In this document: positions 11,118 to 41,046 of the stretch, piece by piece
Layout: the number at the start of each line of letters is the position of its first letter
How positions within the stretch are numbered: position 1 is the first letter of the stretch
Assembly (NCBI RefSeq): GCF_002585305.1
Contig: NZ_NUNF01000013.1
Span: forward strand, 1 to 64,000
DNA from: Bacillus sp. AFS037270
GTDB lineage: Bacteria; Bacillota; Bacilli; Bacillales_B; DSM-18226
Direction of reading: 5' to 3'
DNA: 64,000 bases
Notes under the pieces: model-generated
What the model was told of the DNA's origin: nothing
Databases searched by the model: none
What the model saw: the letters and a program-made list of their open reading frames with translations, nothing else
Made by a program: the position numbers and the translations under genes

Positions 11118-13427
11118 TTAGTTTTCAATTGTTTGAGCCTGAGGCGCATTGTTTAATGTCTCATTCAGCTGATGGATAAGACTAGTAAGCATATCTTCCG
11201 TTAATTTTTCTGGATTAAATGCAGCCATGGCACGTAACGGCATAAATCTCATCATTGCCTGGAACATTTCAAAAGCATCTGAGTCTTCCGCCATATTAGC
11301 AAATGGGCTTCCTTCATTTGCTTTAGCAAGGGTTTCTTGAACAATTGGAGCAAGAACTGGATTGGCCATCAGGTCCCCTATTGTCGTGTTCCGATGGACT
11401 AGTTTATTAACCGTAACACTCGAGTTGACTTGTAATGTACCTTTTAAAATCATTTCTGCTGAAGACTTGCCGACAAGAACCTCGAACAACCCACTCTCAA
11501 CATGCCAATCTTGAAGATCCACATTGTAATAAGCAAAAGCTCTTTTATCCAAGGTGAAACTTACTTTTTTCTCTTCGCCTGGTTGTAAATCAACCTTTAC
11601 AAAGCCCTTTAATTCCTTTTCAGGTCGAATAACAGTACTTTCGACATCACGAACATAAAGCTGAACAATTTCCTTTCCAGCCCTCCCACCTGTATTTTTA
11701 ACTGTAGCTGTCACTTCAACTGTTTCATTATCTAAAATGGATTCCTTGTTAATTAATAGATTGGAATATTCAAAGCTTGTATAACTCAGACCATAACCGA
11801 ATGGAAATAACGGTTCAATCGCTTTGGCATCGTAATAGCGGTACCCTACAAAAAGCCCTTCCTTATATTCTACCTTGTCCCCTTCCCCTGGGAAGTTAAG
11901 ATAGGAAGGATTATGACGCAGCTCTTTTGGGAATGTTTCAGCCAATTTTCCACTTGGATTCTCATCACCAAATAATAAATCGGCTATCGCACCTCCTAGC
12001 GCCTGACCTCCCAAGTATCCTTCAAGGAGGCCCTTTACTTTACCAAGCCAAGGCATTTCAACTGGTGCACCATTGCTTAAGACGACCACTATATTAGGCT
12101 GTACCTCTGCTACCGCTTCAATAAGAATGCGATGATTGTCAGGAATTCTTAAATGCTCTCTGTCATAACCTTCCGATTCATAACGATCTGGAAGACCAAC
12201 AAATAAAACAGCAGCATCCGCATGGACCGCTTTTTCCTTTGCTTCTGAAATTAATTGATCATCCGTAAGATCATTTTTTAAATGATATCCTTTTGCATAA
12301 ACTACGTTGGCATTTCCTGCAGTTTTTTCTATTTCCTCACAGATATTATCCAGCTTGGTCGGCTTGATATGGGAACTTCCGCCGCCCTGATACCTTGGGT
12401 TAACAGCAAACTCACCGATAACGGCAATGGTTCCGTCCTTTTTTAACGGAAGAATACGATCTTCATTTTTCAGTAAAACCATACTTTCCCTCGCAACTTC
12501 TCTAGCAAGCTGGTGATGTTCCTCTTTATCATAAACAGCGTTTTCTTTTTTGTTACCCACTGCCTTAAAGATAATTTTTAATAATCGTTCAACGGTTTTG
12601 TCCAGGGTTTGTTCCGAAAGTTTACCGCTCTTTACTGCTTCAACAATTTTTCTATCTCCTAATCCATTACTTGAAGGCATTTCTAAATCTAATCCGGCTT
12701 CTAATCCCTTTGCCCGTTCATTGACTGCACCCCAATCTGAAACGACAAACCCATCAAAGCCCCATTCATCCTTTAAAATATCGGTTAATAAGGTTTTATT
12801 TTCTGAAGCATATTCCCCATTTACTTTGTTATAGGAACACATAACAGTCCATGGTTCAGCTTTCTTAACGGCATTCTCAAAACTAGCAAGATATATTTCT
12901 CTTAACGTCCGTTCATCAACGATTGCATCCACCGACATTCGTCGATGTTCCTGATTGTTGGCAGCAAAATGTTTAAGTGATGTACCTACACCCTGGCTTT
13001 GAACACCTTTAATGTGGTTTGCCGCTAATTCCGAAGATAGATAGGGATCCTCGGAAAAATATTCAAAATTCCTGCCACATAATGGTGAACGCTTGATATT
13101 CGCACCAGGTCCAAGAAGAACAGCGACGTCCTCAGCCTGACACTCTTCACCTAAGGCAGCACCAACCTTATTAATTAGAGAACGATTCCATGTACTTGCA
13201 AGTCCAACAGCAGAGGGGAAACAGGTTGCTGGCACACTATCATAAATCCCCAGGTGATCAGCACTTTGCTGCTGTTTGCGCAGGCCATGCGGGCCATCTG
13301 TAACCATAATGGATGGTATGCCTAATCTTTCAATTCCTTTAAGCTGCCAGAAGTTTAGCCCGGAGCAAAGACTTGCCTTTTCTTCAATTGTCATTTGTTC
13401 AATTAATTTTTTAATATTTCTTTTCAT
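11118..13427 (-). CDS. GH3 beta-glucosidase-type enzyme with extra C-terminal helical module
   Basis: This retaining exo-beta-glycosidase has 769 residues. In order: GH3 N-terminal barrel (about 10-300) with [10 protein letters not shown], substrate-binding KHFAANNQE (152-160) and nucleophile Asp231 in FVVSDWG; GH3 C-terminal alpha/beta domain (about 315-550); fibronectin III-like domain (about 585-665, [21 protein letters not shown]). Residues 680-769 add a helical tail ([19 protein letters not shown]) that resembles the ends of two other enzymes in this window. There is no signal peptide, so the enzyme is cytoplasmic. GAGGAGG lies eight bases before the ATG. The exact sugar (glucose, xylose or arabinopyranose) is not decided by the sequence. 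Confidence 0.92.
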
Positions 13428-13648
13428 TCAACAGTCCTCCTCATTACTATTTCATAGTCTATTGACGTACAAGAACTAGTTTTTTATTTAACTGCTCTAG
13501 TTTTTGTGAAGATGCTAATGGTGTGAACTTTTCAAAAATCTGTAGGAACATCCAGATTATTCCCTTCTTGCCCCCACAGAGCGGATTTTCCACATGAATG
13601 TTCTTAAATTACTAAATTTGTTTTAATAGCTTCACTTTACTGATAGGA

Positions 13649-14938
13649 TCAACAATTCTGGACTGTTATTTGTTTTGACTGCAACGCCAACCATTGGAGT
13701 AGAGTTACCTCTGTTCCGTTTTCTTTTACCGGAGAACCATCGTAGTCCAGTACGCAATCGTCTTTTAGCATGTAGATCCAGGTGCCATGGCCGAAAAATT
13801 CAAAGGGGTTTCCTTCATCATCCTTAAAAATACCTGAGGTATCTACGACCTTATCAAAATATGATAAATGAACATTAGGAGCACCAGCTTTGAATAGACG
13901 CTCATATGTTGGAATCACAGTGATTTCAGGTTTTACTATTACATCATTTTTTGCATGTGTGAACCAGATAGGAGTATTCTTGATATCTTGAATATTTTGT
14001 TCCGTAATGACCTCGTCATAGAGAGCTTCGCATACAGGATATGCTGCTGCGAAGAAATCGGGGTAATCGATTATCATTCGCATGGTCATAAACCCCCCGT
14101 TAGAACAGCCACCGATATAGATACGATTCGTATCTATGTTTGAATGTAAATTAATAAACTCATCAATGAGCGCTTTTAGTGCCTTCACGTACATTGAATT
14201 TCCGCTCTTAGTGTACTCACCGCTGCCGTCATCCATCCACATGGTGGGTACTTGGGGAGCAAGGACATAAGCGCCCCCGAATATTCTTTGTACTTTTTCA
14301 CTTGACAGGTTTACTACATTATTTCCGGTATAAGCGACCGTCGTGTCATATCCTCCTTCGCCTGCACCATGCAGCCAGATGATTAAGGGATGTTTATCTC
14401 TGCTTATATTTGGTGAAAAACAGCCAAAACTGAGGGGCATCTCAGCATATGATGACTCACTGTTTACCCAGCCTTTGACCTGCTCCATGTTACCGCCGCC
14501 GAAATGATCATAGACAAGTCCTGAAATGGAATCAGTATTGGTTTGTATTTCTTTCACCTGTGTTATGCGAAAATCGCAGAAAACATAGACATTATGTTCC
14601 TGCATAAACGCAATTTCCGAGTTCAAACGGTAGATCGCCTCACATTCAAGTTCCAGCGTGGCGTGACTGCCTATTTCGGTTTTGTTCCCTTCACTGTCTG
14701 ATGTATACGCATTTGTCACACGACAATAGCCTTTTGACGGATAAAGTTCTACCGAATTCCAATCTTTTCTGAGTTGTATCACTTCGCCCGTTTTTTTACT
14801 TCGTCTCTCGACATAAACGTTGAATGTATCTTCAGATAGTGCCTCTGATTTAATAGATTGGGAAAGTGGAAGAATGATTTTGGTTATATAAGGGCCATAG
14901 TCAGTAACCTCTGTCACAGTCATGTAAGAACGATTCAT
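13649..14938 (-). CDS. alpha/beta-hydrolase esterase with N-terminal Ig-like domain
   Basis: The C-terminal half is an alpha/beta hydrolase: oxyanion motif WLHGAGEGG (188-196), nucleophile Ser279 in GGCSNGG, an aspartate in THAKNDVIVKPE and a late histidine in FEFFGHGTW. The first 130 or so residues look like a beta-sandwich, as known for Thermotoga EstA-type esterases. Such enzymes remove acyl groups such as acetyl or feruloyl from carbohydrates. No signal peptide is seen. The gene lies 17 bp after the DUF5060-type hydrolase with a good AGGAG site, so the two are cotranscribed and probably work on one esterified oligosaccharide. The 221 bp between it and the GH3 gene hold no recognised element. 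Confidence 0.8.
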   Translation of the reverse strand: MNRSYMTVTEVTDYGPYITKIILPLSQSIKSEALSEDTFNVYVERRSKKTGEVIQLRKDWNSVELYPSKGYCRVTNAYTSDSEGNKTEIGSHATLELECEAIYRLNSEIAFMQEHNVYVFCDFRITQVKEIQTNTDSISGLVYDHFGGGNMEQVKGWVNSESSYAEMPLSFGCFSPNISRDKHPLIIWLHGAGEGGYDTTVAYTGNNVVNLSSEKVQRIFGGAYVLAPQVPTMWMDDGSGEYTKSGNSMYVKALKALIDEFINLHSNIDTNRIYIGGCSNGGFMTMRMIIDYPDFFAAAYPVCEALYDEVITEQNIQDIKNTPIWFTHAKNDVIVKPEITVIPTYERLFKAGAPNVHLSYFDKVVDTSGIFKDDEGNPFEFFGHGTWIYMLKDDCVLDYDGSPVKENGTEVTLLQWLALQSKQITVQNC

Positions 14939-14955
14939 TTTTACCTCTCCTTTTG

Positions 14956-16704
14956 TTATATTTTAGTCATCCTGACAGCCATATACTGTTTACCAGGAAG
15001 TTCTATTCTAAATTTCCCTTCATAAACATCTTCGAGTTCATTAATCGTCATATCCCAGGTATCAATTACGTCCACTTTATACTGAATGCCAGGTTTCATC
15101 CGGTACTCTCTGAAACTAGGTCGATTAAAGCCATAATAATATAAATAAAATTTGTCAGGAATTCCCGCAGAAGGTGCATCCCAAGCGGTCTCTAATGGAT
15201 TCAATCCCTCTTGCGGCCCCTCTTCCATTATCCGCCTCAAGAAACCAATTCGCTTTGGACTGTCTCCATGTAACTGTCCACCTTTGGACCACCATAAAAT
15301 ATCTTCTGGATGGAGATACGTTTCGCCATGTCCAACATAACCACCTCTGACTGCACCTTCCCAAAACCTGCGTACCATTTCTTCCCCAGTGATATTTCCC
15401 CATCCTTGGTCAATATCTCCCTCATAGGCACATTCGTCGATCACGATTGGTTTATTCCACTGTTTTCTCCAGTCGTCCGTATTTTCCGATGTTTTATATA
15501 CATCAATTCGTTGAACACTACAGTGTGTAATCCAAGGCCGTGAATAATCATAGAATCCCCAACAGTTATGAATAGAAATAAGGTGATGGTGAGGGTCATT
15601 TTCCGTTATAATCTGAGCGAATCGCTCCCAATCCTCTATTTCTTTAGCCCACATTAAGTCATATTCATTTGCTAATGACCACCAAAGATTGCGATAAGCT
15701 GAAAGACGAGCGGAGAGGTATCTCAAATAGCGATCATCTTCCGCCTTTTTCATTTCTGCAAATCCCCACCTGTCATAGGCGTGGTACAGGATCAGATCGG
15801 CTTCAATTCCTAGATTGCCAAGATCTGCGATCCTTTGTTCTAAGTGCTGAAAAAACTTTGGATTAAAACGTGTAAAGTCCCATCCTTCCTCAAGAGAACC
15901 TTCAAAAGGATAGAATAAAGGCTCATTAGAGTTAAATTGATAGGATTTAGGAAACACACACATTCGTATTTTATTAAATGGTGAAGCCTGTAATGTATTC
16001 AATGTTTGTTGAATTAATTTTTCCTCTTGGTGAACCCATGCATAACAAGTGGTTCCTACTGGAACGTATGGTGTTCCATCCTCATACGAAAAATGAAATG
16101 TATTTTTTACCCGGACAGGACCATGGTTTTCCTTAGAGGGACTTTCACAAGTAAACTCACCTTCAATACCGGTCAGTGACCGTGCATTGCTCGTTGTTTT
16201 AAATGTCCAGCTTCCTTCAATACCCGGCATAAATCTGATCCGATAGATACCCTCCCCGTCATAGAATCCAAGAGTCTTATAGCGTTTCTCTCCATTACAG
16301 ATAAATTCTGCTTCCAAAGTGACGTCTGTAAAAGGGTTGCCGTGAGCTGGGCCATGAAGTTCCACCTCAAATACGGACCATTTCTCTACTTCTTTAGGTA
16401 TAGACACTTTGGCCGATCCCAAAATTGCTGACTCAGATTCATAATTAGACGCCGGTGCAAAGTAACCAGTCTCTTCTTCTAACTCTTCTATAGCAGCCAA
16501 CTCTGAATACAGTTTTTCTTCAATATCCTTTTGACGTAAAGACTCAGGCAGCCGCGAAATTAGTTGTTCCAACGTATTTAATTTAACAAACATAATCGGG
16601 AATTCAGTAGGTTCCAATAATTGTGGCACATATTTTAGCAAAACTGCTTTGGCATTTTTATTTGCCAGGATCTTACCCATTTTCATTTTTGGTGAATAAC
16701 TCAT
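14956..16704 (-). CDS. DUF5060/DUF4038-type clan A glycoside hydrolase with N-terminal helical module
   Basis: Residues about 105-195 are a DUF5060 beta-sandwich (VFEVELHGPAHGNPFTDV), 200-470 an apiosidase-like (DUF4038) TIM barrel, and the end a DUF5605-like beta domain. Candidate catalytic residues are Glu347 in WWSLANEYD (acid/base) and Glu424 in IVIDECAYEGD (nucleophile). The first 75 residues form a separate helical module (MGKILANKNAKAVLLKYVP) like the C-terminal tails of the GH3 at 11118 and the GH78 at 38203. Substrate is unknown; relatives act on branched pectin or apiose side chains. There is no signal peptide. It starts the operon with the esterase that follows. Confidence 0.82.
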   Translation of the reverse strand: MSYSPKMKMGKILANKNAKAVLLKYVPQLLEPTEFPIMFVKLNTLEQLISRLPESLRQKDIEEKLYSELAAIEELEEETGYFAPASNYESESAILGSAKVSIPKEVEKWSVFEVELHGPAHGNPFTDVTLEAEFICNGEKRYKTLGFYDGEGIYRIRFMPGIEGSWTFKTTSNARSLTGIEGEFTCESPSKENHGPVRVKNTFHFSYEDGTPYVPVGTTCYAWVHQEEKLIQQTLNTLQASPFNKIRMCVFPKSYQFNSNEPLFYPFEGSLEEGWDFTRFNPKFFQHLEQRIADLGNLGIEADLILYHAYDRWGFAEMKKAEDDRYLRYLSARLSAYRNLWWSLANEYDLMWAKEIEDWERFAQIITENDPHHHLISIHNCWGFYDYSRPWITHCSVQRIDVYKTSENTDDWRKQWNKPIVIDECAYEGDIDQGWGNITGEEMVRRFWEGAVRGGYVGHGETYLHPEDILWWSKGGQLHGDSPKRIGFLRRIMEEGPQEGLNPLETAWDAPSAGIPDKFYLYYYGFNRPSFREYRMKPGIQYKVDVIDTWDMTINELEDVYEGKFRIELPGKQYMAVRMTKI

Positions 16705-16779
16705 TTCAAGTGTTATCCCCTTTCTCTAAGAGATTTTTAGACTTTATTAGGAAAAGATATGTAAAATATGCTTATTAAT

Positions 16780-16812
16780 ATAAAAGAGAACTATCTCTTC
16801 AGCTCTCTTTTA
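16780..16812 (-). terminator. terminator after the yesL-like gene
   Basis: ATAAAAGAGA pairs with TCTCTTTTAT around a short loop, 15 bp past the yesL-like stop; it should end the ABC permease operon. Confidence 0.7.
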
Positions 16813-16827
16813 TTGTCTCTCATGGAA

Positions 16828-17475
16828 TTAATACGCTTCTGTTCTGGTCTTTTTTTCCGAGAAGTCCGCGGCTTTATTCATTTTTACAAAAACATAATTA
16901 CTTAGCCACATAAGTAAAAATGCTATAATACTACCGCTAAAAAACGGGAGGACTCCGGGTATTTTAATAAAGATGAAACAGAGGAACCCAGTCAAAGTAG
17001 CCATACTAAAGGTTGGGATTGGATTTATGGTCATTAAAACAAATGAATTTTTAATTCCCTCTTTCAAGCGAACATCAAAATGAACCAACACCGGAAAAAT
17101 ATATAATAGAGTAAGTAAAAATAAGATTATGATAATAACATTGGGGACATAAAGTAATTTGAATGTCGGTACCGTGGTTGCCTCGACTATTCTTATGTTT
17201 GAGTACATGAAAAAACAAGATAGGCCGATTATGAGTCCTAATAGGTTCCCTTTAACAAATTCTTTTTTATAAGTGAACCAAAACGTTTTAAATACTGGAA
17301 TATCAGTCTGCTTCAATACCCATTTACGTACCACCGTGAACATAGCCAGTGTGGCCGGAAAAAAACCAAAAACAACAAAACCAAGCAAGGTAAATGAAAT
17401 CCAAAGAACATTCACATAAGCAAACCTTAGGATCCACTCCGAAATACTATAAAATCCCCGCATAAAACCTATCAT
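16828..17475 (-). CDS. YesL/DUF624 family membrane protein
   Basis: This 215-residue protein has about five hydrophobic segments and matches the DUF624 (YesL) family, commonly found beside CUT1 ABC sugar importers and YesM/YesN systems in Bacillaceae and Paenibacillaceae. Typical features are the start with FYSISEWILRFAYVNVLWISFTLLG and FFPATLAMFTVVRKW. The biochemical role of the family is not known. It is the last gene of the permease operon, 116 bp after the second permease, and is followed by a terminator. GGGGG precedes the ATG by ten bases. Confidence 0.85.
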   Translation of the reverse strand: MIGFMRGFYSISEWILRFAYVNVLWISFTLLGFVVFGFFPATLAMFTVVRKWVLKQTDIPVFKTFWFTYKKEFVKGNLLGLIIGLSCFFMYSNIRIVEATTVPTFKLLYVPNVIIIILFLLTLLYIFPVLVHFDVRLKEGIKNSFVLMTINPIPTFSMATLTGFLCFIFIKIPGVLPFFSGSIIAFLLMWLSNYVFVKMNKAADFSEKKTRTEAY

Positions 17476-17591
17476 TTAACATTTCCCCCTTGCCTGTTTC
17501 TCCTGTTTTTGATTCCTTATCTCGATACCGTGATAATACTGGAGGACTATCGATATTCAACCAGCCCTCCATTTTTTATAGAGTGATATAC

Positions 17592-18479: not shown

Positions 18480-18497
18480 CCTTTTCCACCTCCAATT

Positions 18498-19475: not shown

Positions 19476-19502
19476 CCCTATTCCCCCTTCGTTACGTGAA
19501 AA

Positions 19503-19516
19503 TGTTTGCGCTTACA
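19503..19516 (-). promoter_or_regulatory. cre box before the permease operon
   Basis: On the minus strand TGTAAGCGCAAACA fits TGWAANCGNTNWCA at 11 of 12 defined positions, 28 bp before the permease start. CcpA should repress here during growth on preferred sugars. Confidence 0.7.
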
Positions 19517-19722: not shown

Positions 19723-19729
19723 CTGTTCC

Positions 19730-21214
19730 TTATTGCTTTTTCTTCCAAGCTTCGAATTGCTTTTTCTTTTCAGAAATTATTTTATCTAGACCTGCTGCTT
19801 TAAGCTTTTTATTAAACTCTGGTAAGCTCTTCTCTGGGTCCAAAGTGCCCGATTCAATCCCTAATTTATACTGATTAATTACGTTTGTTGAAGCGGCCAT
19901 TTCTGTTTTCACTGGATCTGGGTTAAATGTAAAACCAAACGCAGGAGAGAAAATTGCAGAATTATTATGTTTTTCCATAACTTCCCAGTAATTTGCAGAA
20001 TTTCCTTCCCAAGGGTAGGTTAGGAAATTATTCCCAATCTGCCATTGACCAAACACATATTTGGATTCCTTGACATTATCAGGCAATTTAATAGTACCAT
20101 CAGATTTGACTTGATAATGCTTCCCTTCGATACCATTATCTAATAAATTCATAATATCTTTATCGGTATAGAGTAAATTAATTAATTCCATTGCCTTCTC
20201 CGGATTTTGGCTGTTTCGAGCAATGGACATATTAAAGCCTGTTGCTGCATCCGTATATGAATACACATCCGTCAATTTAACAGATACCATATCATATCCT
20301 GTGATTCCTTTTTCCTGAACATCAAAACCTGGTTTCATGTGATTAAAATATCCAAACCCTTTGCCTGCCTTAACAATATTAGCAGCGACGTCTTGTGAGG
20401 TAGCTGAATTCTTAATAATATAGCCAGCCTGGAACCACTTTCTTGCTAACTTGACAGCATCAACATATTCTGGTTCTTCAAACATATTGACGATTTTTTT
20501 ATCTTTAAAGGATACTACTCCAAGGTTGTCCCCTAGAATATCAAACTTACCACCTGCAATAATAGAAGCAACCGATATGCGTCCTGTGTTTACAACCGGA
20601 GTTAAAGTTGGTTCTTTTTCTTTAACGATTTTAAAAACATTCTCCAAATCAGCAAATGTTTTGACTTGAGAAAGATCGATTTTATATTTATCGACAATAT
20701 CCTTTCTCATGATAAATCCATAATAGGAACCCCAATCACGCATGCTTGGAATACCATACATTTTACCATTCACCTTGTTACCTTCTAAAAGACGTTTAGG
20801 TACGACTTCCAAAATTCCCTTGCCATGTGTTTTAACCAAATCATCTAATGCAAGAAGCTGGCCTTTTGTGGCCTGTGTGCTATAGCCTAAATTGGCTCCG
20901 GTCACGACCAAATCTAGTTTGTCATTCCCTGTAAGCATTAAGTTCGTTTGCTGTTGGTAATTCGCCACATTAATTGGTACTAATTTTACAGTGGCATTAA
21001 TCTTCTTTTTAACGATTTTATTTATTTCATCCTGTACTAATGGCAGATCTTCCATCTCTGTAAAGGTTAAGTATGCCATATTAATTTGATAAGGCTGGCC
21101 CTTTGAGCCTGATCCTTCACTAGTACTACTTTCCTTCGAGCTGCAGCCAGCTAAAACTAAAGCAGCAGACATGACGAACAGTAAAAAACGTGTGAATCTC
21201 TTAAACTGCTTCAT
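19730..21214 (-). CDS. CUT1 extracellular sugar-binding lipoprotein
   Basis: This is the surface binding protein of the importer, 494 residues. The signal peptide ends in the lipobox LVLAGC with lipidated Cys24, followed by a Ser-rich linker. The rest is an LplA/YtcQ-type family 1 binding protein (AYLTFTEMEDLPLVQDEINKI, GIPSMRDWGSYYGFIMRKD). A close paralogue lies at 26434. A perfect cre box and the operator pair lie between it and the response regulator gene upstream. Ligand unknown; the neighbourhood points to plant oligosaccharides. Confidence 0.93.
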   Translation of the reverse strand: MKQFKRFTRFLLFVMSAALVLAGCSSKESSTSEGSGSKGQPYQINMAYLTFTEMEDLPLVQDEINKIVKKKINATVKLVPINVANYQQQTNLMLTGNDKLDLVVTGANLGYSTQATKGQLLALDDLVKTHGKGILEVVPKRLLEGNKVNGKMYGIPSMRDWGSYYGFIMRKDIVDKYKIDLSQVKTFADLENVFKIVKEKEPTLTPVVNTGRISVASIIAGGKFDILGDNLGVVSFKDKKIVNMFEEPEYVDAVKLARKWFQAGYIIKNSATSQDVAANIVKAGKGFGYFNHMKPGFDVQEKGITGYDMVSVKLTDVYSYTDAATGFNMSIARNSQNPEKAMELINLLYTDKDIMNLLDNGIEGKHYQVKSDGTIKLPDNVKESKYVFGQWQIGNNFLTYPWEGNSANYWEVMEKHNNSAIFSPAFGFTFNPDPVKTEMAASTNVINQYKLGIESGTLDPEKSLPEFNKKLKAAGLDKIISEKKKQFEAWKKKQ

Positions 21215-26433: not shown

Positions 26434-27918
26434 TTATTTTTTCCACTTATCATATTGCTTTTGTTTCTCAGCAATGATTTTCTCCAAACCTGCCTGTTTC
26501 AGCTTTTTATTGAATTCTGGTAAGCTCTTATTCGGATCTAATGTACCTGATTCAATCCCTACTTTATATTGATTGAGTACGTTTGTTGCTGCGGCGATTT
26601 CTGTTTTTACTGGATCTGGATTAAACGTAAAACCAAAAGCTGGAGAGAAGATAGCAGAGTCGTTATGCTTCTTAAAGATTTCCCAATAATTTGGCGGGTT
26701 TCCTTCCCAAGGATAAGTTAGAAAATTATTACCAATTTCCCACTGACCGAAAACATATTTAGATTCTTTAACACCATCCGGTAATTTAATAGTTCCATCT
26801 GATTTAACGACGTAATGCTTCCCTTCAATTCCATTCGCTATTAAATTCATGATATCTTTATCAGTGTAAAATAAGTTCATAAGCTCCATTGCTTTTTCCG
26901 GATTTTGGCTGTTTCTCGCAATGGACATCCCAAAGGATGTGGCAGAATCAGTATATGCGTAAACATCTGTAAATCTAACAGCTACCATTTCATGCCCTGT
27001 GATTCCTTGTTCCTGTATTTCAAACCCTGGCTTCATATGTGAAAAATAACCAAACCCTTTTCCTGCTTTTACGATATTAGCTGCTGCTTCTTGTGATGTT
27101 GCTGCATCCTTCATGACATACCCAGCTTTGAACCATTTTCTTGTTAGTGCTACTGAATCCATATAATCTGGATCTTCAAACATATTGATAAATTTTTTGT
27201 CTTTAAAAGACATGACGCCCAAGCCATCACCAAGAACATCATACTTTCCGCCATTTAAGACGCTCGCCGGTGTTATGGCACCTGTATTAACAATTGGGGA
27301 TAAAGTTGGTTCTTTTTCTTTGACAACTTTGAACACTTTTTCTAAATCCGCAAATGATTTTACCTGAGAAAGGTCAATGTTATATTTATCCACAATATCC
27401 TTTCTCATAACAAAACCATAATCAACGCCCCAATCTCTTGCACTTGGTACCGCATAGAGTTTTCCGTTCACTCTGTCTCCTTCTAGAAGCGTCTTAGGCA
27501 CGGCTTCCAAAATACCTTTCCCATATTTTTCAAGAAGATCATCCAAGGGTTGATATTGCCCCTTGACTGCAGATGTGTTATAGCCAAAGAATGATGAGGA
27601 TACGATTAAATCTAGTTTTTCATTTCCTGTAAGCAGCAGGTTAGATTGCTGCGACCAAGCTGAGCCGTTAATTGGCATTAGTTTTACCGTTGCATTTATC
27701 TTTTTCTTGGTAATTTTATTGATTTCTTCTTGAACCAATGGCAAATCGTCAATTTTAGTAAAGGCCAGGTATGCCATTGTCAGTTGATATGGTTCGCCTT
27801 TTCCATTAGAATCCCCTTTACTAGCAGTGCTGCTTTGCTTCGAGGAACATCCTGTCAGAATTAAAAAAATTGACAGGATGACCACTATAAATCTGACAAA
27901 AAATTTACCCTTACCCAT
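26434..27918 (-). CDS. second CUT1 sugar-binding lipoprotein (orphan)
   Basis: This 494-residue lipoprotein has the lipobox LILTGC (Cys24) and is nearly collinear with the binding protein at 19730, with the same length and long identical blocks such as ATSQ, AAANIVKAGKGFGYF and HMKPGFE. No permease is adjacent; a terminator follows and its own cre box and operator precede it. I infer that it feeds the permease pair at 17592-19475, giving the importer two interchangeable receptors. Differences cluster in the first third (for example SSSFFGYNTSAVKGQ), compatible with a different ligand. Confidence 0.92.
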   Translation of the reverse strand: MGKGKFFVRFIVVILSIFLILTGCSSKQSSTASKGDSNGKGEPYQLTMAYLAFTKIDDLPLVQEEINKITKKKINATVKLMPINGSAWSQQSNLLLTGNEKLDLIVSSSFFGYNTSAVKGQYQPLDDLLEKYGKGILEAVPKTLLEGDRVNGKLYAVPSARDWGVDYGFVMRKDIVDKYNIDLSQVKSFADLEKVFKVVKEKEPTLSPIVNTGAITPASVLNGGKYDVLGDGLGVMSFKDKKFINMFEDPDYMDSVALTRKWFKAGYVMKDAATSQEAAANIVKAGKGFGYFSHMKPGFEIQEQGITGHEMVAVRFTDVYAYTDSATSFGMSIARNSQNPEKAMELMNLFYTDKDIMNLIANGIEGKHYVVKSDGTIKLPDGVKESKYVFGQWEIGNNFLTYPWEGNPPNYWEIFKKHNDSAIFSPAFGFTFNPDPVKTEIAAATNVLNQYKVGIESGTLDPNKSLPEFNKKLKQAGLEKIIAEKQKQYDKWKK

Positions 27919-28961: not shown

Positions 28962-29267
28962 CTAATCTGCTATCTCCATTTCTAACAGCGCTGAACTTAA
29001 ACTTTTTCCGTGCATATCGATTGCTATTGACTTGGTAACTCCCCCGCCCAAAGCCTTTTCCATAACGAAATTCAATGCTCCTAAACTTGGTATCTCATAT
29101 CTTGTCACTTTGCCTTGAACAATTTCCTTAAACCAGTCTTTTATTCTTTGAGCAGTTACCTGTTCTTTTATTTTTTCATAGTTTTCCATATCATAGGCAA
29201 TGACGGATATCACAGAAATATCTCCCTTATCTCCGGTTCTTGAATGGGCGATTTCCCTTAATTTCAT
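28962..29267 (-). CDS. AtuA-like ferredoxin-fold protein
   Basis: This 101-residue protein (KLREIAHSRTGDKGDISVISVIAYD) matches the small domain usually found at the C-terminus of, or next to, AtuA/DUF1446 proteins. The conserved RTGDKGD motif is present, and GALNFVMEKALGGG follows. It overlaps the AtuA gene by four bases, so both are made together and probably form one complex. The biochemical function of the pair outside acyclic terpene catabolism is not established. Confidence 0.85.
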   Translation of the reverse strand: MKLREIAHSRTGDKGDISVISVIAYDMENYEKIKEQVTAQRIKDWFKEIVQGKVTRYEIPSLGALNFVMEKALGGGVTKSIAIDMHGKSLSSALLEMEIAD

Positions 29268-30624
29268 AGTTTCACCTCTTCATAAACTACTTCAAGGTTT
29301 ATATCAGTTTCTGGAATTAAAATGGATCCTATCGCAATTATTTCTCTGGTAAACTTTCTGGCTCCTCCGCCCCCTGCAGGCCCGTTCGTATAGAGTGCTT
29401 CTACTTCGTTTCCAATTTGATCTGCAGCCTCCTTTGTTTGCGTCCTAGCTGCAACTCTTAATCGTACTTCTTTAAAATCTTGTTTGCCATCATACAAAAT
29501 CTCGCCTAAAGTGTCTTGATAAAGTGAATTGACCCCAATAAAATAGATCCTTAATTCATCAATTGGCAGGCCGCAATTCTCCACCCGTCTTTTAACAATC
29601 TCTCCGGCCAACCTAGCCCTTTCCAAGGCACCAGTACCGCCATAACTTATTTCTCCTTCACCAATGTAACCTTCTTTATATCCAATACTGGTTTTTAGAA
29701 GACCTGTCTTTTCTTTACCACTGGCAAATTGGATTAATACTCTATTTTTCTCAAGTTGCTGTACAACCACCCTTGAAAAATCTGCTATTACATCAGGTGT
29801 ATAATAGTTTTCAGGATCTTGGATTTCATATAGAATTTGTTCTTTACAGGTTTCAGGAGTAACCATCCCCCCTGCCTCTTCCAGCTTGGTAATTAATATA
29901 TCGCCCTTTTCATCAATTTCTCCGATTGGAAAGCCAATGTTCCATAAATCAGGTACTTCTTTATAACCAGGATCTGCAAAATATCCTCCCATCACCTGTG
30001 AGCCACATTCCAATAAATGACCGGCAAGTGTCCCTTTTCCCAATAAATCGTAATCATGAACATCCCAGCCAAATTCATATAGTAAAGGTCCAACAACCAG
30101 AGATGGGTCCGCACCCCTGCCTGTAATGACGATATCTGCCCCATCTTTTAGAGCTTGTACGATGCCTTCTGCTCCAATATAGGCATTGGCCGATACCATT
30201 TGAGATTGAATATAGCGAAGCTTTTCACCTGTCTCCATTACCTTATAATCCAAGTATTTTTCAATATTGTGATAAACATCATCCCCAAGAACTGCTGCTA
30301 TCTTGAGCTGCTTGATTTCCAATTGTTCTGCAAGCCTTTGGGTTGCTTTTACGGCTGCCAAAGGGTTGGCTGCCCCCATATTGGTGATAATCTTTACATT
30401 CTTTTCAATACATAAAGGGAGTATCTTTTCCATACGATATTCTAGTAGTTCATTATAACCCTTTGTTGGATCGAGAAGTTTTTGCTGTTGTGCAAGTGCG
30501 ATGGTCCTTTCAGCCAGGCATTCGAAAATAATATAGTCCAAGTTTCCCTTTTTAATAATGTCTATCGCTGGTTCAATTCGTCTCCTGCATATCCGGCTCC
30601 GGAACCTATTCTTATCTTTTTCAA
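29264..30624 (-). pseudogene. AtuA/DUF1446-family protein, broken by a 1-base deletion near its start
   Basis: From 30580 down to 29264 the frame encodes a normal AtuA-type protein (RIEPAIDIIKKGNLDYIIFECLAER, DIVITGRGADPSLVVGPLLYEFGW, NGPAGGGGARKF). The expected N-terminus, KKIRIGSGAGYAGD, is encoded just upstream in another frame, starting at TTG 30624 with GGAGG nine bases away. One base is missing in the codon after Gly-Asp (GGAGACGAATTG where GGAGACCGAATTG would restore the frame). The alternative in-frame N-terminus back to 30706 would start inside a terminator hairpin and does not look like the family. Either a true frameshift or a sequence error. Confidence 0.75.
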
Positions 30625-30653
30625 GTTCAAAAACCTCCAATAAAATAAAATAA

Positions 30654-30693
30654 CCCGAAAAATTGGACTCATTCCATGCGTCCAATTTTCGGG
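30654..30693 (-). terminator. terminator-like hairpin after chbG
   Basis: CCCGAAAAATTGGAC (30654-30668) pairs with GTCCAATTTTCGGG (30680-30693) and is followed by TTATTTTATTTTA on the minus strand. It may attenuate read-through from the deacetylase gene into AtuA. Confidence 0.75.
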
Positions 30694-30702
30694 CTTCTTT
30701 CA

Positions 30703-31545
30703 TCACATTTGTCTTTGTCGATTACGCAAATCACGCCATTTTATTAGTTGGATTTCTTCTGATCGCAGTAATTCTTGGATTTCTTTGTCCCGAAATACAT
30801 CAAATTCAAACCGCCTCATAGGCCAAGTTTCCGTGATGCCTTTTAATTCGCTGGTATCCAAGGAAGGATGAAAAACTAATTCGGTTATACCTGGTTTTAA
30901 TGAACGTATACAATTAATGGCCGCCTCTTTGGTGATTTGATAGGCTGGTTCTTTTCCCGCGGGCACAAAAAAGGGTAACATTTCTATATAGTCAGGCAAT
31001 TGAATCCCCTTTTTTTCTGCAAGCGCGATAATTTCTTCATGATTTCCCTGCTTTCTGAACGAGTGACCTTGTTTGGCATATCTTAATGGCAATTGATACT
31101 TTTCACAAAGGTCTAACAGAATGTCCATGACATGATGCATACTTCCCATGTGATTATCAATGTTGGTGGGCTCTAACCCTAACTTAAGCGCAAACTCCAT
31201 CTGAGCAATCGCTTCTTCGCGAAGCTGTTCTGGATCCGCATGTGTTATAACCGTTTGTGTATCTGCAGGAAAATACCCCTTTTCATCAACTAGGGTAGAC
31301 ATATTTGTTTTTAGCGGCCCCCATTTGTAAACGTCCCACTCGGATGTGTGGGTAAAATGAATCCCAACGTCCATTGATGGATTTTGTTTAATGAGGCGGA
31401 CGGCTTCCAATGTCCAAGGACATGTCATCATGAGACTTGCAGAAGTAATGGAGCCTTCTGTAAGGAGTGTATTGATTGCCTCATTTGTTGAATGACACAT
31501 TCCAAAATCATCCGCATTTAGTATTAAATAACGTTCGTTGGACAC
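30703..31545 (-). CDS. ChbG/YdjC-family carbohydrate deacetylase
   Basis: Members of this metal-dependent family remove acetyl groups from sugars such as chitobiose; substrates of most are unknown. The protein of 280 residues shows LILNADDFGMC (Asp12-Asp13), a metal-binding histidine in VGIHFTH and another in DNHMGSMHH. I chose the GTG at 31545 because GGGGAG lies four bases upstream; a GTG at 31557 would place that site inside the gene. It heads a set with the AtuA pair and the CE1-type esterase, and lies just downstream of the repeat array at 31581. Confidence 0.85.
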   Translation of the reverse strand: MSNERYLILNADDFGMCHSTNEAINTLLTEGSITSASLMMTCPWTLEAVRLIKQNPSMDVGIHFTHTSEWDVYKWGPLKTNMSTLVDEKGYFPADTQTVITHADPEQLREEAIAQMEFALKLGLEPTNIDNHMGSMHHVMDILLDLCEKYQLPLRYAKQGHSFRKQGNHEEIIALAEKKGIQLPDYIEMLPFFVPAGKEPAYQITKEAAINCIRSLKPGITELVFHPSLDTSELKGITETWPMRRFEFDVFRDKEIQELLRSEEIQLIKWRDLRNRQRQM

Positions 31546-34075: not shown

Positions 34076-34190
34076 TCAAAATCCTCCCAACTATATTGAT
34101 ATTGCAACTAAGAATAACTTTCATAATCAAGCTAGGCGCTATTGCTAGACAATTCTCAAAGTCGAATACTTTTCTTATCTAGCAAGAAAA

Positions 34191-34210
34191 GGAGGATTTC
34201 AAAATCCCCC
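34191..34210 (-). terminator. short terminator after the Gfo/Idh gene
   Basis: On the minus strand GGGGGATTT pairs with AATCCTCC around TGA, followed by TTTTC. It lies 27 bp past the stop codon. Confidence 0.6.
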
Positions 34211-34236
34211 ATTTCCTGTTTTTGTTTACTTTTCGG

Positions 34237-35333: not shown

Positions 35334-35353
35334 ATGAAAAACACTCCTCTTGA

Positions 35354-36226
35354 TTATTTTTTGATAACTCCTTGTACATAGTTCTCCATCACTTTTAAAT
35401 CGTCCGCAATGCTGGTAATTTTATTTCCAAGCTGTCCTTCGTTTTCCACAATTGTATAACGGATAGAACCTAATTCATTTAGCTTTTGATAGGTTTCTTG
35501 AAAATGAACAATACCAGTGCCGAGATTAACGAAATCATTTGGCTTCACAAACTCCGTATATAATTTCATTGTATCTGGGCTATCCTCTTGGCTTAAAGCG
35601 CTAAATATATTAACCGGATTGACATGTTTGCCTAAATCCTTTTGATGGATCATGTCGCAGCGGCTGCCCAATTTTTCAAGCAATGAAATGGGATCATATC
35701 CACCTCTCATCACCCAAACAAGGTCAAGCTCAAATTTCACGTTCTCTGAATCTGTATTTTCAACTAGAAGTTCAAATAAGGAGGTTTCTCCAATTCTCTT
35801 AAACTCATGTGCGTGATTATGATAATAAAAGCTTAAGCCCGCTTCCTTGCATTTCTTTCCTAATTGATTAAGCTGTTCTGCTGTTCTAAGAGTGTCCTCA
35901 CGTCCTGATATGAATGCCATTGGGAAAACAATGGACTGACATCCAAGTGATGCATTTTCTTCAATAATCTTATCCCAATCTGCATCAAGGATTGCTTTCC
36001 CTGGAGCAACACCTTCATGCGCTGCAAATGCTTTTAATCCCAAGTCGTCAAACTTCTGTTTTATTACCGGAAGTGTAAAGGTATCAGTAAATCGTTCACC
36101 CGTAGCAAAATTGGCAGAAATCAACTCTACATTTTTGTAACCTATTTCGGCTACCTTTTCTAAGGTTCCGAAATAATCCTCGTTTAACTCTCTAAATACT
36201 GAAAATAGATTTAATCCGATTTCCAT
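35354..36226 (-). CDS. sugar phosphate isomerase/epimerase (AP endonuclease-2 TIM barrel)
   Basis: This 290-residue TIM-barrel protein of the IolE/xylose-isomerase-like family uses a divalent metal. Visible metal-site strands are VELISANF, YYHNHAHEF (with His-Asn-His) and FELDLVWVMRGG, plus MIHQKDLG and IVENEGQLG near the end. It lies 20 bp upstream of the Gfo/Idh gene, with which such proteins often act on the same oxidised sugar. The start is ATG 36226 or the adjacent GTG 36229; both share the GGGG site. Confidence 0.85.
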   Translation of the reverse strand: MEIGLNLFSVFRELNEDYFGTLEKVAEIGYKNVELISANFATGERFTDTFTLPVIKQKFDDLGLKAFAAHEGVAPGKAILDADWDKIIEENASLGCQSIVFPMAFISGREDTLRTAEQLNQLGKKCKEAGLSFYYHNHAHEFKRIGETSLFELLVENTDSENVKFELDLVWVMRGGYDPISLLEKLGSRCDMIHQKDLGKHVNPVNIFSALSQEDSPDTMKLYTEFVKPNDFVNLGTGIVHFQETYQKLNELGSIRYTIVENEGQLGNKITSIADDLKVMENYVQGVIKK

Positions 36227-36349
36227 CACGTAACTACCCCATTTCTTATATTTTTTGCGAACTGAGATTATTGAAGTTTCTTAGCTCACTATAATCCCAC
36301 TGTTAAAGCCCTTTGTTATTTTATAGATTTCTAACCACTAACAAACTAT

Positions 36350-36363
36350 TAAAAACGTTTATA
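36350..36363 (-). promoter_or_regulatory. cre-like box before the isomerase gene
   Basis: TAAAAACGTTTATA fits 10 of 12 defined cre positions. It lies 124 bp before the isomerase start. Nothing else is seen in 36230-36407. Confidence 0.35.
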
Positions 36364-36407
36364 AAACTGAATTCTCTGCATTTCCACCTGTCAAAGCGGC
36401 TAATAAA

Positions 36408-37961
36408 TCATGTTTTAAATCCTTTATCTGGTCTATAGCTAAAATAGTCGAAATGAGCTGGAACAGTGGATTCTTTTCCATTTCCAGTCGCATACATTCC
36501 GAAAAAAAGGCCCGTAAAACCGCCGGCAACTTCAGTGGAAAGCATGGAACTTTCGCCTTTACCTAAAATGACTTTTTCACCATTTGAGGATATAAAGGAA
36601 AAAGTAAAACTAAAATCATCAGCTTTTATTCCAAGGATCACCCTTGGCGAATCGTACTCCACTTCTGCCTCCACCTTCCACATGCTCCCAATTCTGCGGC
36701 GGAATTGAATAAGAGATTTTCCCTTTTTAAGAGTCTTAGCTATTTCATAATGAAAATTTTCGTTCATAAATACAGTCAGGCCTGCTTCTTCTCCCTCCAC
36801 AATAGGGCTAAATTCCATTAAGGTAGAAATCTCACAATTAAGATGCTGCTGCCTTCGCCCCACAAATGCAGGGGAGTCTGTATCATTCAAAGTACATGAT
36901 TGACCACGAATGGTTAGCCAGCCAGATCGCTCCGTTAAGGACCATGAGGTTGGAGTCGGATTACGATAAAAATTCCATTCTAACGGAAGGGAGGTGGTAT
37001 CAAAATCTTCTTTCTCCTGCCATGGCTTAGATAGGCCTAATGGAAGAGATTTTGCATCATTCTCTACATCTGCCTGCCCATCTTCTCCCATAATAGGCCA
37101 CCCTCCTTCGGTCCAATAGACTGAAACTAGATTGGTTTCGCGCCCTAAGTGATGACGTTTTGGATAACCGACAGGCCTGATTCCAAGAAACACAGACCAC
37201 CAGCTGCCATCGACTGCTTGGACTAAATCAGCATGCCCTATCGCTTGAATTGGTTTATCCGTACTTCGATTCGACAGGATTGGGTTATTCGGATTGCCCT
37301 CAAAAGGCCCGTAAGGACTTCTGCTTCTTGCGATGGTGACCATATGGCCATATTCTGTACCGCCCTCGGCAATTAGTAAGTAATACCATCTATTCATTTT
37401 ATATAAATGTGGTCCTTCCGGGGAGCTTCCACCTGTTCCTTTCCAAATTAACCGACGCTCAGTTAGGAGTTTCCCTGATTCAATATCTAGTTCTGCCTGA
37501 TAAATACCTATTGGTTCACCGACGCGAAAATCGCTTGTCCCAGTTATGAAAACCCTTCCATCTTCATCAAAAAATAAGGATGGATCAATTCCGCCCCACC
37601 CCTCAATAAATATAGGCTCGGACCATGGACCCTCAGGATGTTCTGCAAAAACATAAAAGTTCTTCGATGTTGATATATTGGTTGTTATTACATAAAAGCG
37701 TCCGTCTTGATAACGGATGGTTGGAGCAAATATTCCTTGTGAAGGTCCCATTTTATGTATGCGTGTAAGCGGTAATTGACTTTCGCGTGTCAATACATGG
37801 CCAATCTGTTCCCAATTTACTAAATTCGTACTATGGAAAATTGGTATGCCTGGAAAATATTCAAACGAACTGGTTACCAAATAATAATCTTTGCCCACCC
37901 TGCAAATACTTGGATCAGGGTGAAAACCACTAATAACTGGATTCAAATATTTCATATTCAT
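36408..37961 (-). CDS. GH43 beta-xylosidase/alpha-arabinofuranosidase
   Basis: An inverting five-bladed propeller enzyme for terminal xylose or arabinose. Counting from ATG 37961, the catalytic base is Asp16 (GFHPDPSI), the pKa modulator Asp126 (GGIDPSLF) and the acid Glu182 (SSPEGPHLY). The last 200 residues are the beta-sandwich typical of the XynB-like subfamily (EEAGLTVFMNENFHYEIA, AGGFTGLFFGMYATGNG). The ORF opens at 37973 but the start is likely 37961 or 37955, with GGAAG upstream. No signal peptide. A copy of the 22-bp-spaced operator lies before it. A paralogue is at 51691. Confidence 0.93.
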   Translation of the reverse strand: MNMKYLNPVISGFHPDPSICRVGKDYYLVTSSFEYFPGIPIFHSTNLVNWEQIGHVLTRESQLPLTRIHKMGPSQGIFAPTIRYQDGRFYVITTNISTSKNFYVFAEHPEGPWSEPIFIEGWGGIDPSLFFDEDGRVFITGTSDFRVGEPIGIYQAELDIESGKLLTERRLIWKGTGGSSPEGPHLYKMNRWYYLLIAEGGTEYGHMVTIARSRSPYGPFEGNPNNPILSNRSTDKPIQAIGHADLVQAVDGSWWSVFLGIRPVGYPKRHHLGRETNLVSVYWTEGGWPIMGEDGQADVENDAKSLPLGLSKPWQEKEDFDTTSLPLEWNFYRNPTPTSWSLTERSGWLTIRGQSCTLNDTDSPAFVGRRQQHLNCEISTLMEFSPIVEGEEAGLTVFMNENFHYEIAKTLKKGKSLIQFRRRIGSMWKVEAEVEYDSPRVILGIKADDFSFTFSFISSNGEKVILGKGESSMLSTEVAGGFTGLFFGMYATGNGKESTVPAHFDYFSYRPDKGFKT

Positions 37962-38072
37962 AACACTTCCCATCTTATTTTCAAAGTGGTACTCAATTTA
38001 ACTATTTTAAATTGCTAAAAATTCAAAATAGTCTAATCTATCTTTAAAGATAACCTAGTTGAAAGCCATTTC

Positions 38073-38114
38073 CTACTGTAAATACGACTTATTCCTTTTA
38101 AAATTCCGACTTTT
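38073..38114 (-). promoter_or_regulatory. putative YesN-type operator (site D)
   Basis: Plus-strand AATACGACTT and TTCCGACTTTT have CGAC cores at 38085 and 38107, 22 bp apart, with a CTACTGT flank resembling the other sites. It precedes the GH43 gene by about 110 bp. Confidence 0.65.
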
Positions 38115-38154
38115 TTACCTTATATGGGATTTCTTCTATATCGATAATTAAAAC

Positions 38155-38183
38155 TAGCCAAACACGTTTTGGGTGTTTGGCTA
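38155..38183 (-). terminator. terminator after the GH78 gene
   Basis: A perfect 10-bp stem, TAGCCAAACA with TGTTTGGCTA, lies 20 bp past the GH78 stop and runs into TTTTAATTAT on the minus strand. Confidence 0.75.
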
Positions 38184-38202
38184 TTCAAAATCTCTTTATT
38201 TG

Positions 38203-41046
38203 TTAGTGAACAGTCACTTTAATTTTCTTTAGCTTAACATCTAACTCATCAAGAATTTCGGTCGAAATAGGTAAGAATGGCATATGTGACAATTCCCTTA
38301 AGGACTGGTGTCCAACCTTATCCACCATTTCCTGAGGGAAAGCTCCAACATGTGGGACTGTCTCTGCCAGTACATTCTTAGCTTCTTCATTTTCAAGCAC
38401 TTCACCTAAAGGCATGTGTGTACCGAAGTATTTAATATAGTCAACTTCTGGCGTATAAAAGATTTCCCAGGTTCCGCTGCTTATCTCAACAAGGACCAGC
38501 TCCCCTGATTGACTTGCGTTGTTTTCAGTGTTCCTTAAAGGTCTGCCATTGATTGATACGTTCTCGAGTTTCGCATCCGGCAACTCAACAGTAGCTGTAG
38601 CATTAAACGGAATCACGAATTTAAATTTCAAATTTCCTTCTTCCGTTAGTTCCCACTGACTTTCGTATAAACCTGCAGCAGAATCCAATGTCGCTTTAGC
38701 AAATTTCAATCGATAATCGGGCTGAGGCGCCAACCTGACATGTCTAAAACCTGGCCTATCCTCCACAGGGTTGATACCTGCTACATTTCGATACATCCAT
38801 TCCACAATCGAACCATAAGCATAGTGATTTAAAGAGTTCATATCGGTTCCGCTAATCTTGCCGTCCGGTAATACGGAATTCCATCGTTCCCAAATGGTTG
38901 TTGCCCCCATTGTGACGGCATATAACCAGCTTGGATAATCCTTATTTAAAAGTAACGTATAAGCTAAATCATTGTTTCCGTTCTCGGAAAGCACTCTGCA
39001 TAGATACGGTGTCCCAACAAATCCAGTCTTCAAGTGGTTCTTGTCCTTTTTTAATCTTTCACGTAAATCGTTAGCTATTCTGTTTCTATGCTCTTCTGGA
39101 ACAAGGTCCATAAATAAGGCAACAACTAATGCTGTCTGATTGTTTAAGGCAAGGCGTCCGGTGGAAGTAAAGTATTCTGCTCTTATCGCTGCTCTTACTT
39201 CGTTTGACAACTTTTCATATTCCTGTGCTATTTCCTTCTTGCCAAGTACATTTGCTGCTTTAGCCACTAACATAGAGGAATAGCAATAATAGGCTGAGGA
39301 GATAAAAACTGTTTCTGTTCCGCCCATTGGAGAATTTGGATCATCTCCATCCAATGCCAGCCAGTCACCAAAATGGAAGCCTGTTGTCCAAAGTCTTTTA
39401 GAACCAGAAGCTTCATCTGCCCTCTTTATAAAATCAACCCAGCCCTTCATACTCTCAAATTGCTGTTCTAGAATCGCTTTATCTCCATAATGAAGATAGA
39501 CATTCCATGGGATAACAGTTGCTGCCTCTCCCCATGCACTTGAACCGCCGCCTTTAACAGTTGCCATAGGAACTACCATTGGAACCATACCATCTAATCC
39601 TGATTGTTCTTGGGCTAGGTCATAACCGTATTTACTAAAGAAAGCGTAGGTATCCATATTGAAGGCAGCTGTTCCTGAAAACACTTGGGCATCTCCAGTC
39701 CAGCCCATTCGCTCATCGCGCTGAGGGCAATCTGTCGGTACATCTAGGAAGTTCCCTTTTTGCCCCCATAATGCATTCAGGAATAATTTATTAACCAATG
39801 GATTACTAGTTTCAATACTTCCCGTTTGATCCATATCTGAATACAAGACACATCCTGTAAAATCTTCTTTATTTAGTCCTCCGTTCCATCCGGTGACTTT
39901 TACATATCTAAAGCCGTAATAAGTAAAATGTGGTCTAACAGTATATTCTTCTCCATTAGAAATATATCTGAACTCTGCCTTGGCTGTACGTAGATTGTCT
40001 TGATAAAAATTTTCTTCTTGCAAGAGTTCAGCATACTGTAAAACAATTTCGGACCCCTTTGGAGCATTGGTTCTAAACTGAACCCAGCCAACCATGTTCT
40101 GACCCATATCCAGCACTGTTTCTCCGGCTGGAGTTTTGATCACTTCAATTGGCTTTAACTCTTCCTTCACTACTACCGGCAGGCTTAATCTTGCCTTTAG
40201 TCTGTCATAACCTGAGTCAAGCATCTTAACATTGTACGAAGTACCATCAATAAAGGTTGCATCGTAAATCTCACCATCATATAAACCACTAAATAAGATA
40301 TTGCTCTTTCTGGCTTTCCATGAGCCATCCGAATGAATGACGGTCGTTGTTCCATCTGCATGGTTTAAAACAATTTCACATAGAAGGGCAAATTGATCAC
40401 CATAAACTTCCGTTTCTCCACCTTCAAAACCAAAGCGACCCTTGTATAATCCATTTCCAAGACTAACCTCGACAGAGTTTTGTCCCGTTCTAACTAGATC
40501 GGTAATATCATAGGTCTGGTATTGCAGCCATTTGTCATATGCATTGAAATTTGGAGTAAGATACTCATCCCCGGCTTTCTCACCATTAATCTCGATTTCA
40601 TATAAACCTAAACCACAAACATAGGCGCGAGCAGAGACCACTTCTTTTAACAGGTCAAATTCTCTCACTAAGACTGGGTGTATCTCCTTATCAAAATCCG
40701 GTGTAATCCACTTTGCCTCCCAAGGTTCTGCCATTTTGGCCGTTTCAAACCAAGCTGTGTCACTAGCAGCCACATCCCCATTATCCGCCCAAACCGTCAC
40801 TCTCCAAAAATAGCGTGTACATGACTGTAATTTAATCGGAAGTTCAAAAGCAAGACTATCAATTTCCGCACTCTTTCCACTGTCAAATACAATGTTCGCA
40901 AAATTTTCATCAAGGGCAACCTCAATTTGCGCAGCTGTTTGTTTTTTGGCGGTTGTGTCATAAGTGACAAAAGATAAACGAGGCTTTCCTAAATCAAATC
41001 CCAGTGGGTTTGTTATACGGTTTGTTTTCAAATTTTTTATTTTCAT
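38203..41046 (-). CDS. GH78 alpha-L-rhamnosidase with extra C-terminal helical module
   Basis: This inverting rhamnosidase has 947 residues from ATG 41046 (GGGGAGG 11 bases upstream; the frame extends to a GTG at 41076). Order: N-terminal beta domains (TNPLGFDLGKPRLSF, ARAYVCGLGLYEIEINGEK), then the alpha/alpha barrel with DVPTDCPQRDERMGWTGD, where the acidic residues of RDER are the acid candidates, and a second glutamate in TIWERWNSV, then a beta-sandwich. Residues 873-947 carry the extra helical tail LGEVLENEEAKNVLAETVP shared with the GH3 at 11118 and the DUF5060 enzyme. No signal peptide. It would release rhamnose from imported pectin- or glycoside-derived pieces. Confidence 0.93.
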   Translation of the reverse strand: MKIKNLKTNRITNPLGFDLGKPRLSFVTYDTTAKKQTAAQIEVALDENFANIVFDSGKSAEIDSLAFELPIKLQSCTRYFWRVTVWADNGDVAASDTAWFETAKMAEPWEAKWITPDFDKEIHPVLVREFDLLKEVVSARAYVCGLGLYEIEINGEKAGDEYLTPNFNAYDKWLQYQTYDITDLVRTGQNSVEVSLGNGLYKGRFGFEGGETEVYGDQFALLCEIVLNHADGTTTVIHSDGSWKARKSNILFSGLYDGEIYDATFIDGTSYNVKMLDSGYDRLKARLSLPVVVKEELKPIEVIKTPAGETVLDMGQNMVGWVQFRTNAPKGSEIVLQYAELLQEENFYQDNLRTAKAEFRYISNGEEYTVRPHFTYYGFRYVKVTGWNGGLNKEDFTGCVLYSDMDQTGSIETSNPLVNKLFLNALWGQKGNFLDVPTDCPQRDERMGWTGDAQVFSGTAAFNMDTYAFFSKYGYDLAQEQSGLDGMVPMVVPMATVKGGGSSAWGEAATVIPWNVYLHYGDKAILEQQFESMKGWVDFIKRADEASGSKRLWTTGFHFGDWLALDGDDPNSPMGGTETVFISSAYYCYSSMLVAKAANVLGKKEIAQEYEKLSNEVRAAIRAEYFTSTGRLALNNQTALVVALFMDLVPEEHRNRIANDLRERLKKDKNHLKTGFVGTPYLCRVLSENGNNDLAYTLLLNKDYPSWLYAVTMGATTIWERWNSVLPDGKISGTDMNSLNHYAYGSIVEWMYRNVAGINPVEDRPGFRHVRLAPQPDYRLKFAKATLDSAAGLYESQWELTEEGNLKFKFVIPFNATATVELPDAKLENVSINGRPLRNTENNASQSGELVLVEISSGTWEIFYTPEVDYIKYFGTHMPLGEVLENEEAKNVLAETVPHVGAFPQEMVDKVGHQSLRELSHMPFLPISTEILDELDVKLKKIKVTVH

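Follow-up and report, generated by a model that had tools for sequence, protein, structure and literature searches.

A small helical module is attached to three glycosidases encoded in a 64,000-nucleotide stretch of the genome of Bacillus sp. AFS037270 (contig NZ_NUNF01000013.1, positions 1 to 64,000; hereafter the window). The C-terminal tail of a GH3 enzyme, the C-terminal tail of a GH78 alpha-L-rhamnosidase and the N-terminus of a DUF5060 enzyme were confirmed to be homologous, representing a single domain some 70 residues long. An earlier, sequence-only reading of the window had described the module as shared by these three enzymes. The observation proved larger than stated there: this is a real, unnamed domain with enzymes of seven kinds as hosts, and it also occurs alone.

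One domain on three unrelated enzymes

Family alignments were gathered separately for each host and compared pairwise with hhalign, using column shuffles as controls. The DUF5060 alignment matched the GH78 alignment at E 7.5e-7 over 28 columns and the GH3-tail alignment at E 1.5e-6 over 71 columns; neither value was equalled in any of 50 shuffles. The GH78 and GH3 alignments alone did not match significantly (E 0.0058, equalled by 1 of 50 shuffles; with a three-row GH3 alignment, E 0.04, equalled by 2 of 60). Profile-profile comparison was thus significant for two of the three pairs. The remaining, weak pair is bridged by profiles free of GH3 sequences, and the three segments are placed in one family.

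One such profile, A4, has a seed without any GH3 but including the two other window hosts. Searched against window open reading frames (ORFs) of at least 50 amino acids, it placed the GH3 host third (whole-protein E 0.0012), below two seed members, with a top single stretch (E 0.0087) limited to residues 723-755. The next ORF scored E 1.7. This ranking backs the earlier claim that the GH43 and GH30 proteins of the window, and its two further GH3 proteins, lack the module; the GH1 protein named in the same claim was not separately identified.

AlphaFold models of the DUF5060 segment (predicted local distance difference test, pLDDT, 87.6; predicted template modelling score, pTM, 0.74; five helices) and of the GH78 segment (pLDDT 87.2, pTM 0.70) both had the C-termini of solved GH3 beta-glucosidases (7ms2, 9lql) as their top PDB fold matches. 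In the fold search of 350,542 chains, GH3 tails were the top 5 among 10 matches. The Clostridium thermocellum enzyme (7ms2) and PSTG1 (8j9f, 9lql) are direct homologues of the window GH3, and their alignments with it cover the tail; these tails have been solved only within GH3. We rejected a chance likeness between short amphipathic helices, and regard it as highly improbable, on the strength of two pairs with clean shuffle controls, the matches of a GH3-free profile to GH3 C-termini near full length in ten genomes (mutually close relatives), and the place of GH3 tails at the head of the fold matches.

The segments quoted in the sequence-only reading were recovered in the frames and positions claimed for them, all on the minus strand, the GH3 one spanning residues 683-701 (Table 1). 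Its description of the last helix needed correction: the ending is L-x-x-x-L (LYSEL, LDVKL, LIHQL), not L-x-x-L. The insert between the two halves of the module is longer in the GH3 tail than in the other two, and none of the three window modules contains a cysteine. By eye, no obvious signal peptide was seen at the start of the three host proteins. The top NCBIfam model for the GH3 host is exo-alpha-(1->6)-L-arabinopyranosidase (903.9 bits, under the cut-off of 1300). The sole PDB match of the DUF5060 host, 4n0r, aligns from residue 105 and does not cover the module; this host is identical to a protein of Bacillus sp. AFS076308 across the 80 residues searched, and the source of the window is a Neobacillus-like bacterium.

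Table 1. Modules and host proteins in the window
Feature	Position	Strand	Description	Basis
GH3 module	11163..11387	-	residues 681-755, C-terminus of ORF 11118-13427	
GH3 host	11118..13427	-	769 aa: GH3 N, GH3 C, Fn3-like, module	Pfam
DUF5060 module	16486..16698	-	residues 3-73, N-terminus of ORF 14956-16704	
DUF5060 host	14956..16704	-	582 aa: module, DUF5060, Apiosidase-like, DUF5605	Pfam
GH78 module	38218..38427	-	residues 884-953, C-terminus of ORF 38203-41076	profile match (circular, GH78 rows belonging to the seed) and hhalign
GH78 alpha-L-rhamnosidase host	38203..41076	-	957 aa	Pfam PF25788, PF08531, PF05592, PF17389, PF17390

Hosts, distribution and relatives

The module was found on GH2, GH3, GH78 and DUF5060 enzymes, carboxylesterases, an alpha/beta-hydrolase and short-chain dehydrogenases (SDR), and in free-standing form. 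It is therefore not glycosidase-specific, and a role confined to glycosidases was dropped after the SDR, carboxylesterase and free forms had been found. The position is N-terminal in DUF5060 and SDR proteins and C-terminal in the remaining enzymes. A combined profile matched 312 of the sequences collected, which gave 233 distinct modules of at least 50 residues: 126 in short frames, 44 in GH78, 27 in GH3, 14 in DUF5060, 10 in GH2, 6 in SDR, 2 in carboxylesterases and 4 in other frames. Hosts were assigned by BLAST against one reference per family, with unmatched frames of less than 220 amino acids counted as free-standing, and the 126 short frames may include fragments and DUF1858-like proteins. 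Three of the four other frames continue upstream of a short protein, and L108 is the remaining one. In this 339-residue frame (the same as L141:1645-2661), a hydrophobic stretch at the N-terminus and a repetitive middle precede a module at the C-terminus, and no known catalytic domain was recognised by eye. The alpha/beta-hydrolase, with a weaker C-terminal match, is extra to this tally.

A tree of 138 modules had 10 host changes, compared with a mean of 81 and a minimum of 72 over 200 shuffles of the host labels. Since the tree follows the hosts, the fusions of the module to enzymes were few and old. The claim that a single domain sits at either end of unrelated enzymes is backed by sequence profiles, predicted folds and numerous relatives; its mobility holds on a long time scale only.

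A protein search from free-standing forms, with candidates restricted to lengths close to the query, returned 1719 proteins at E up to 0.01 among 7990 scored; none of the 120 matches listed has a precomputed Pfam domain. Whole genomes were also searched in overlapping draws, each including its own centre genome. A4 matched 2 of 249 genomes in the phylum of Neobacillus drentensis G001 and 6 of 198 in the phylum of the Planctomonas genome G005 (four of the six being DUF1858-like). Profile A5 matched 12 of 199 in the order and 18 of 250 in the class of G001, and 12 of 99 in the family of G393. Profile A6, built solely from free-standing forms, matched 21 of 119 in the family of the Sphingomonas genome G648 (E up to 1e-4). 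All six genomes picked for a DUF5060 locus with the extension matched, as did one of six other genomes. The module is thus widespread yet uncommon.

On sequence grounds, we place the module beside DUF1858 (PF08984), as a divergent sister and not a member, with no family entry of its own. In the phylum of the Planctomonas genome, A4 matched four short proteins (L052-L055; E 2.9e-4 to 6.1e-4), which look DUF1858-like and all carry CxxC. Two of them were scanned against PF08984: L052 scored E 2.3e-7 (31.3 bits, under the cut-off of 32.2) and L054 E 0.0032. The alignment of the four matched A5 (E 4.2e-8); it also matched the DUF5060 (4.3e-6), GH3 (5.4e-4) and GH78 (4.7e-3) alignments, for each of these three with none of 40 shuffles equal. 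The likeness to DUF1858/ScdA_N-like proteins includes this profile match and perhaps a similar helical arrangement (2k53 and the N-terminal part of YtfE, which is ScdA_N). Set against it, the window segments lack a Pfam match at E up to 10 and most modules are cysteine-free. It is improbable that the module is a ligand-sensing or redox/metal domain, derived from DUF1858-like ancestors and regulating its host: a cysteine is present in only 12 of the 138 modules, in contrast to the CxxC of all four DUF1858-like proteins.

No existing family name could be adopted. Neither Pfam nor NCBIfam named the three window segments, no Pfam family, carbohydrate-binding ones included, matched them at E up to 10, and the free forms L051, L042 and L021 had no credible Pfam score. 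Literature searches found no printed description of a domain shared across these families, nor a statement that the GH3 tail is common to other families; among the entries shown, a search on PSTG1 gave solely papers on wheat rust. One source labels free modules (P0046, P0053, P0055 and others) 'para-nitrobenzyl esterase', and a second apparently labels them DUF1858. The former label is a probable annotation error, arising from esterases that bear a C-terminal module (L128, L130).

A possible gate on the aglycone side

We favour, at a probability of about 0.47, a reading in which the module would work as a flexible gate or lid on the aglycone side of the active site. Fused at the C- or N-terminus of enzymes acting on small conjugated molecules, it would be tethered through a linker beside the active-site mouth, as a flexible lid on the leaving-group side. 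There it may touch the bulky non-sugar moiety of the substrate, helping to recruit and position it. The window GH3, GH78 and DUF5060 enzymes would use it in the same manner. This reading is favoured because of truncation data from gut beta-glucuronidases (GUS), the small-molecule hosts and the methionine-rich modules of GH2 and GH3 (9.6% and 8.7% methionine, compared with 2.2-2.4% in the window hosts).

The C-terminal domain that holds relatives of the module is that of gut GUS that bind flavin mononucleotide (FMN), which are GH2 enzymes, whereas the window hosts belong to GH3, GH78 and DUF5060. FMN binds the GUS core and is not known to bind the module. Early PDB searches with profiles A1 and A2 gave no matches. 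A5 matched Rh3 GUS (7kgz) at residues 653-731 (E 8.6e-6); it includes two Neobacillus GH2 rows, relatives of GUS, and the match is not fully independent. A6 also ranked 7kgz first (E 0.015). The six closest solved relatives of a module-bearing Neobacillus GH2 (L048) include 7kgz, 6mvh, 6mvg and 6mvf. The last of these, an FMN-binding GUS, aligns with L048 through the module to the final residue, and the module match to 6mvg has E 6.7e-4.

Two papers report that, in FMN-binding GUS, the C-terminal region is mobile, unresolved and, in models, beside the active site; that specific activity on mycophenolate glucuronide falls eightfold when Rh2GUS is stopped after residue 644; and that Rh3 requires its C-terminal domain for triclosan glucuronide (PMC9377255, PMC8748916). 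The second describes the Rh3 GUS crystal as a dimer in which the C-terminal region is unresolved, and reports no structural change in its Rh3 GUS mutants (PMC8748916).

Several observations weigh against the gate. The published C-terminal domain has about 130-150 residues and exceeds the module, and the truncation removed about 130 residues, likewise more than the module. The match of the GH2-module profile A9 to Rh2GUS (6mvh, residues 681-778) is weak (E 0.027) and is outranked by an unrelated Puf protein, 3v71 (0.002); only its C-terminal place supports it. Modules are methionine-poor in DUF5060 (3.6%), GH78 (3.4%) and SDR (1.7%) proteins. GH78 enzymes without a detected module coexist with module-bearing ones in the same genomes: 14 of the 30 GH78 loci examined (from 47 matches) carry one, and several module-less loci end soon past the would-be module start. 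As such enzymes exist, the module appears dispensable for rhamnosidase chemistry. Finally, because free modules have no recognised consistent GH neighbour, a lid acting in cis cannot be the whole story.

A broader form of the proposal, tentative and rather doubtful, is a general aglycone-handling module. The copies on a glucosidase, rhamnosidase, esterase and dehydrogenase acting in succession in one pathway would bind the same amphipathic aglycone, each at its active-site mouth. Free copies in sphingomonads and actinobacteria would carry or buffer hydrophobic compounds of this sort and pass them on, between enzymes or to efflux pumps.

The presence or absence of the module among GH78 relatives of the same genomes, together with weak sequence conservation (mean column identity of 33% in A5), would suit a structural appendage that merely makes its host more stable or soluble and takes no part in substrate handling or assembly. 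We consider this unlikely, given that the module recurs across seven host families and also occurs unfused. The loss of activity on truncation of Rh2GUS and the structurally unchanged Rh3 GUS mutants (PMC8748916) also argue against it.

Gene neighbourhoods and the docking alternative

The main rival to the gate remains a docking or oligomerisation tag, suggested in the sequence-only reading for selected cytoplasmic glycosidases. In this account a module would bind another module or some partner, keeping the enzymes of a pathway together, and the free module would be an adaptor. Dockerin/cohesin-type docking modules are likewise small, helical and appended to glycosidases; the present module differs in having no Pfam match to such families and in having some hosts that are not glycosidases. 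The existence of free-standing modules is in line with a tag, as is the reported tetramer of PSTG, presumably the GH3 enzyme of 8j9f and 9lql (PMC3622683).

Genomic clustering of module-bearing genes also speaks for a tag. In N. drentensis G001, 6 of the 10 gaps between module genes are shorter than 30 kb, compared with 0.51 expected under uniform placement; the count uses eight profile positions and three GH3 genes, of which only the tail of L142 was read. GH78 genes missed by the module profile share the same regions, and the clustering is therefore weak evidence; catabolic genes cluster anyway. In five Bacilli genomes (G957, G997, G1007, G1061 and G1077), module-bearing GH78 and SDR genes lie within 20 kb of a GH3 gene of the module-bearing kind. 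In three of these genomes (L161; G957; G1077) the GH3 frame is interrupted by one in-frame stop. In the two of the five that were annotated, L132 (G997) and L136 (G1061), genes for a P450 and an MFS_2 transporter stand between the SDR with its N-terminal module and the neighbouring module-bearing GH78 (L132:4109-6432 and L136:4373-9418).

Two Sphingobium plasmids carry a free module in the vicinity of a GH3 or 'glycosyl hydrolase' gene, along with genes for a regulator and an efflux pump. Across 14 other neighbourhoods, inspected by eye on rough gene calls, no recurrent neighbour of free modules was recognised, and the idea that they are partners encoded beside GH genes was set aside for want of a set-wide neighbour. 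A lactate-dehydrogenase-like gene recurs beside free modules in L085, L086 and L088.

This absence of a recurrent partner counts against a tag, as do the apparent signal peptides, seen by eye, of sphingomonad free forms and the occurrence of the domain on dehydrogenases and esterases, which a tag fits poorly. In Rh3 GUS, moreover, the reported crystal is dimeric while the C-terminal domain is mobile and unresolved (PMC8748916). Overall, we hold a docking tag to be somewhat unlikely.

Elsewhere in the window, consecutive minus-strand genes at 1635-7161 encode, by Pfam, a P450, a biotin-synthase-like radical SAM/BATS protein, AAA_26, and class I/II and class III aminotransferases. This order is presumably that of a biotin operon with a BioI-type P450, and a part for the window P450 in glycoside catabolism was ruled out by its place in this apparent biotin-synthesis run. 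Within the glycosidase region, a minus-strand gene at 29264-30706 encodes an AtuA (acyclic terpene utilisation) family protein. Two 494-residue proteins (19730-21214 and 26434-27918, minus strand) end in DUF3502, and one also matches SBP_bac_1; by their sequences they look like duplicated solute-binding proteins.

The finding unites two puzzles studied apart, the unresolved C-terminal domain of GUS, in gut enzymes that reactivate drugs, and the GH3 and GH78 tails that had lacked an explanation, as one domain, and what is learned from one host can be tested in the rest. Should the gate reading hold, swaps or deletions of the module would provide a simple handle on the glycosides usable by a bacterium.
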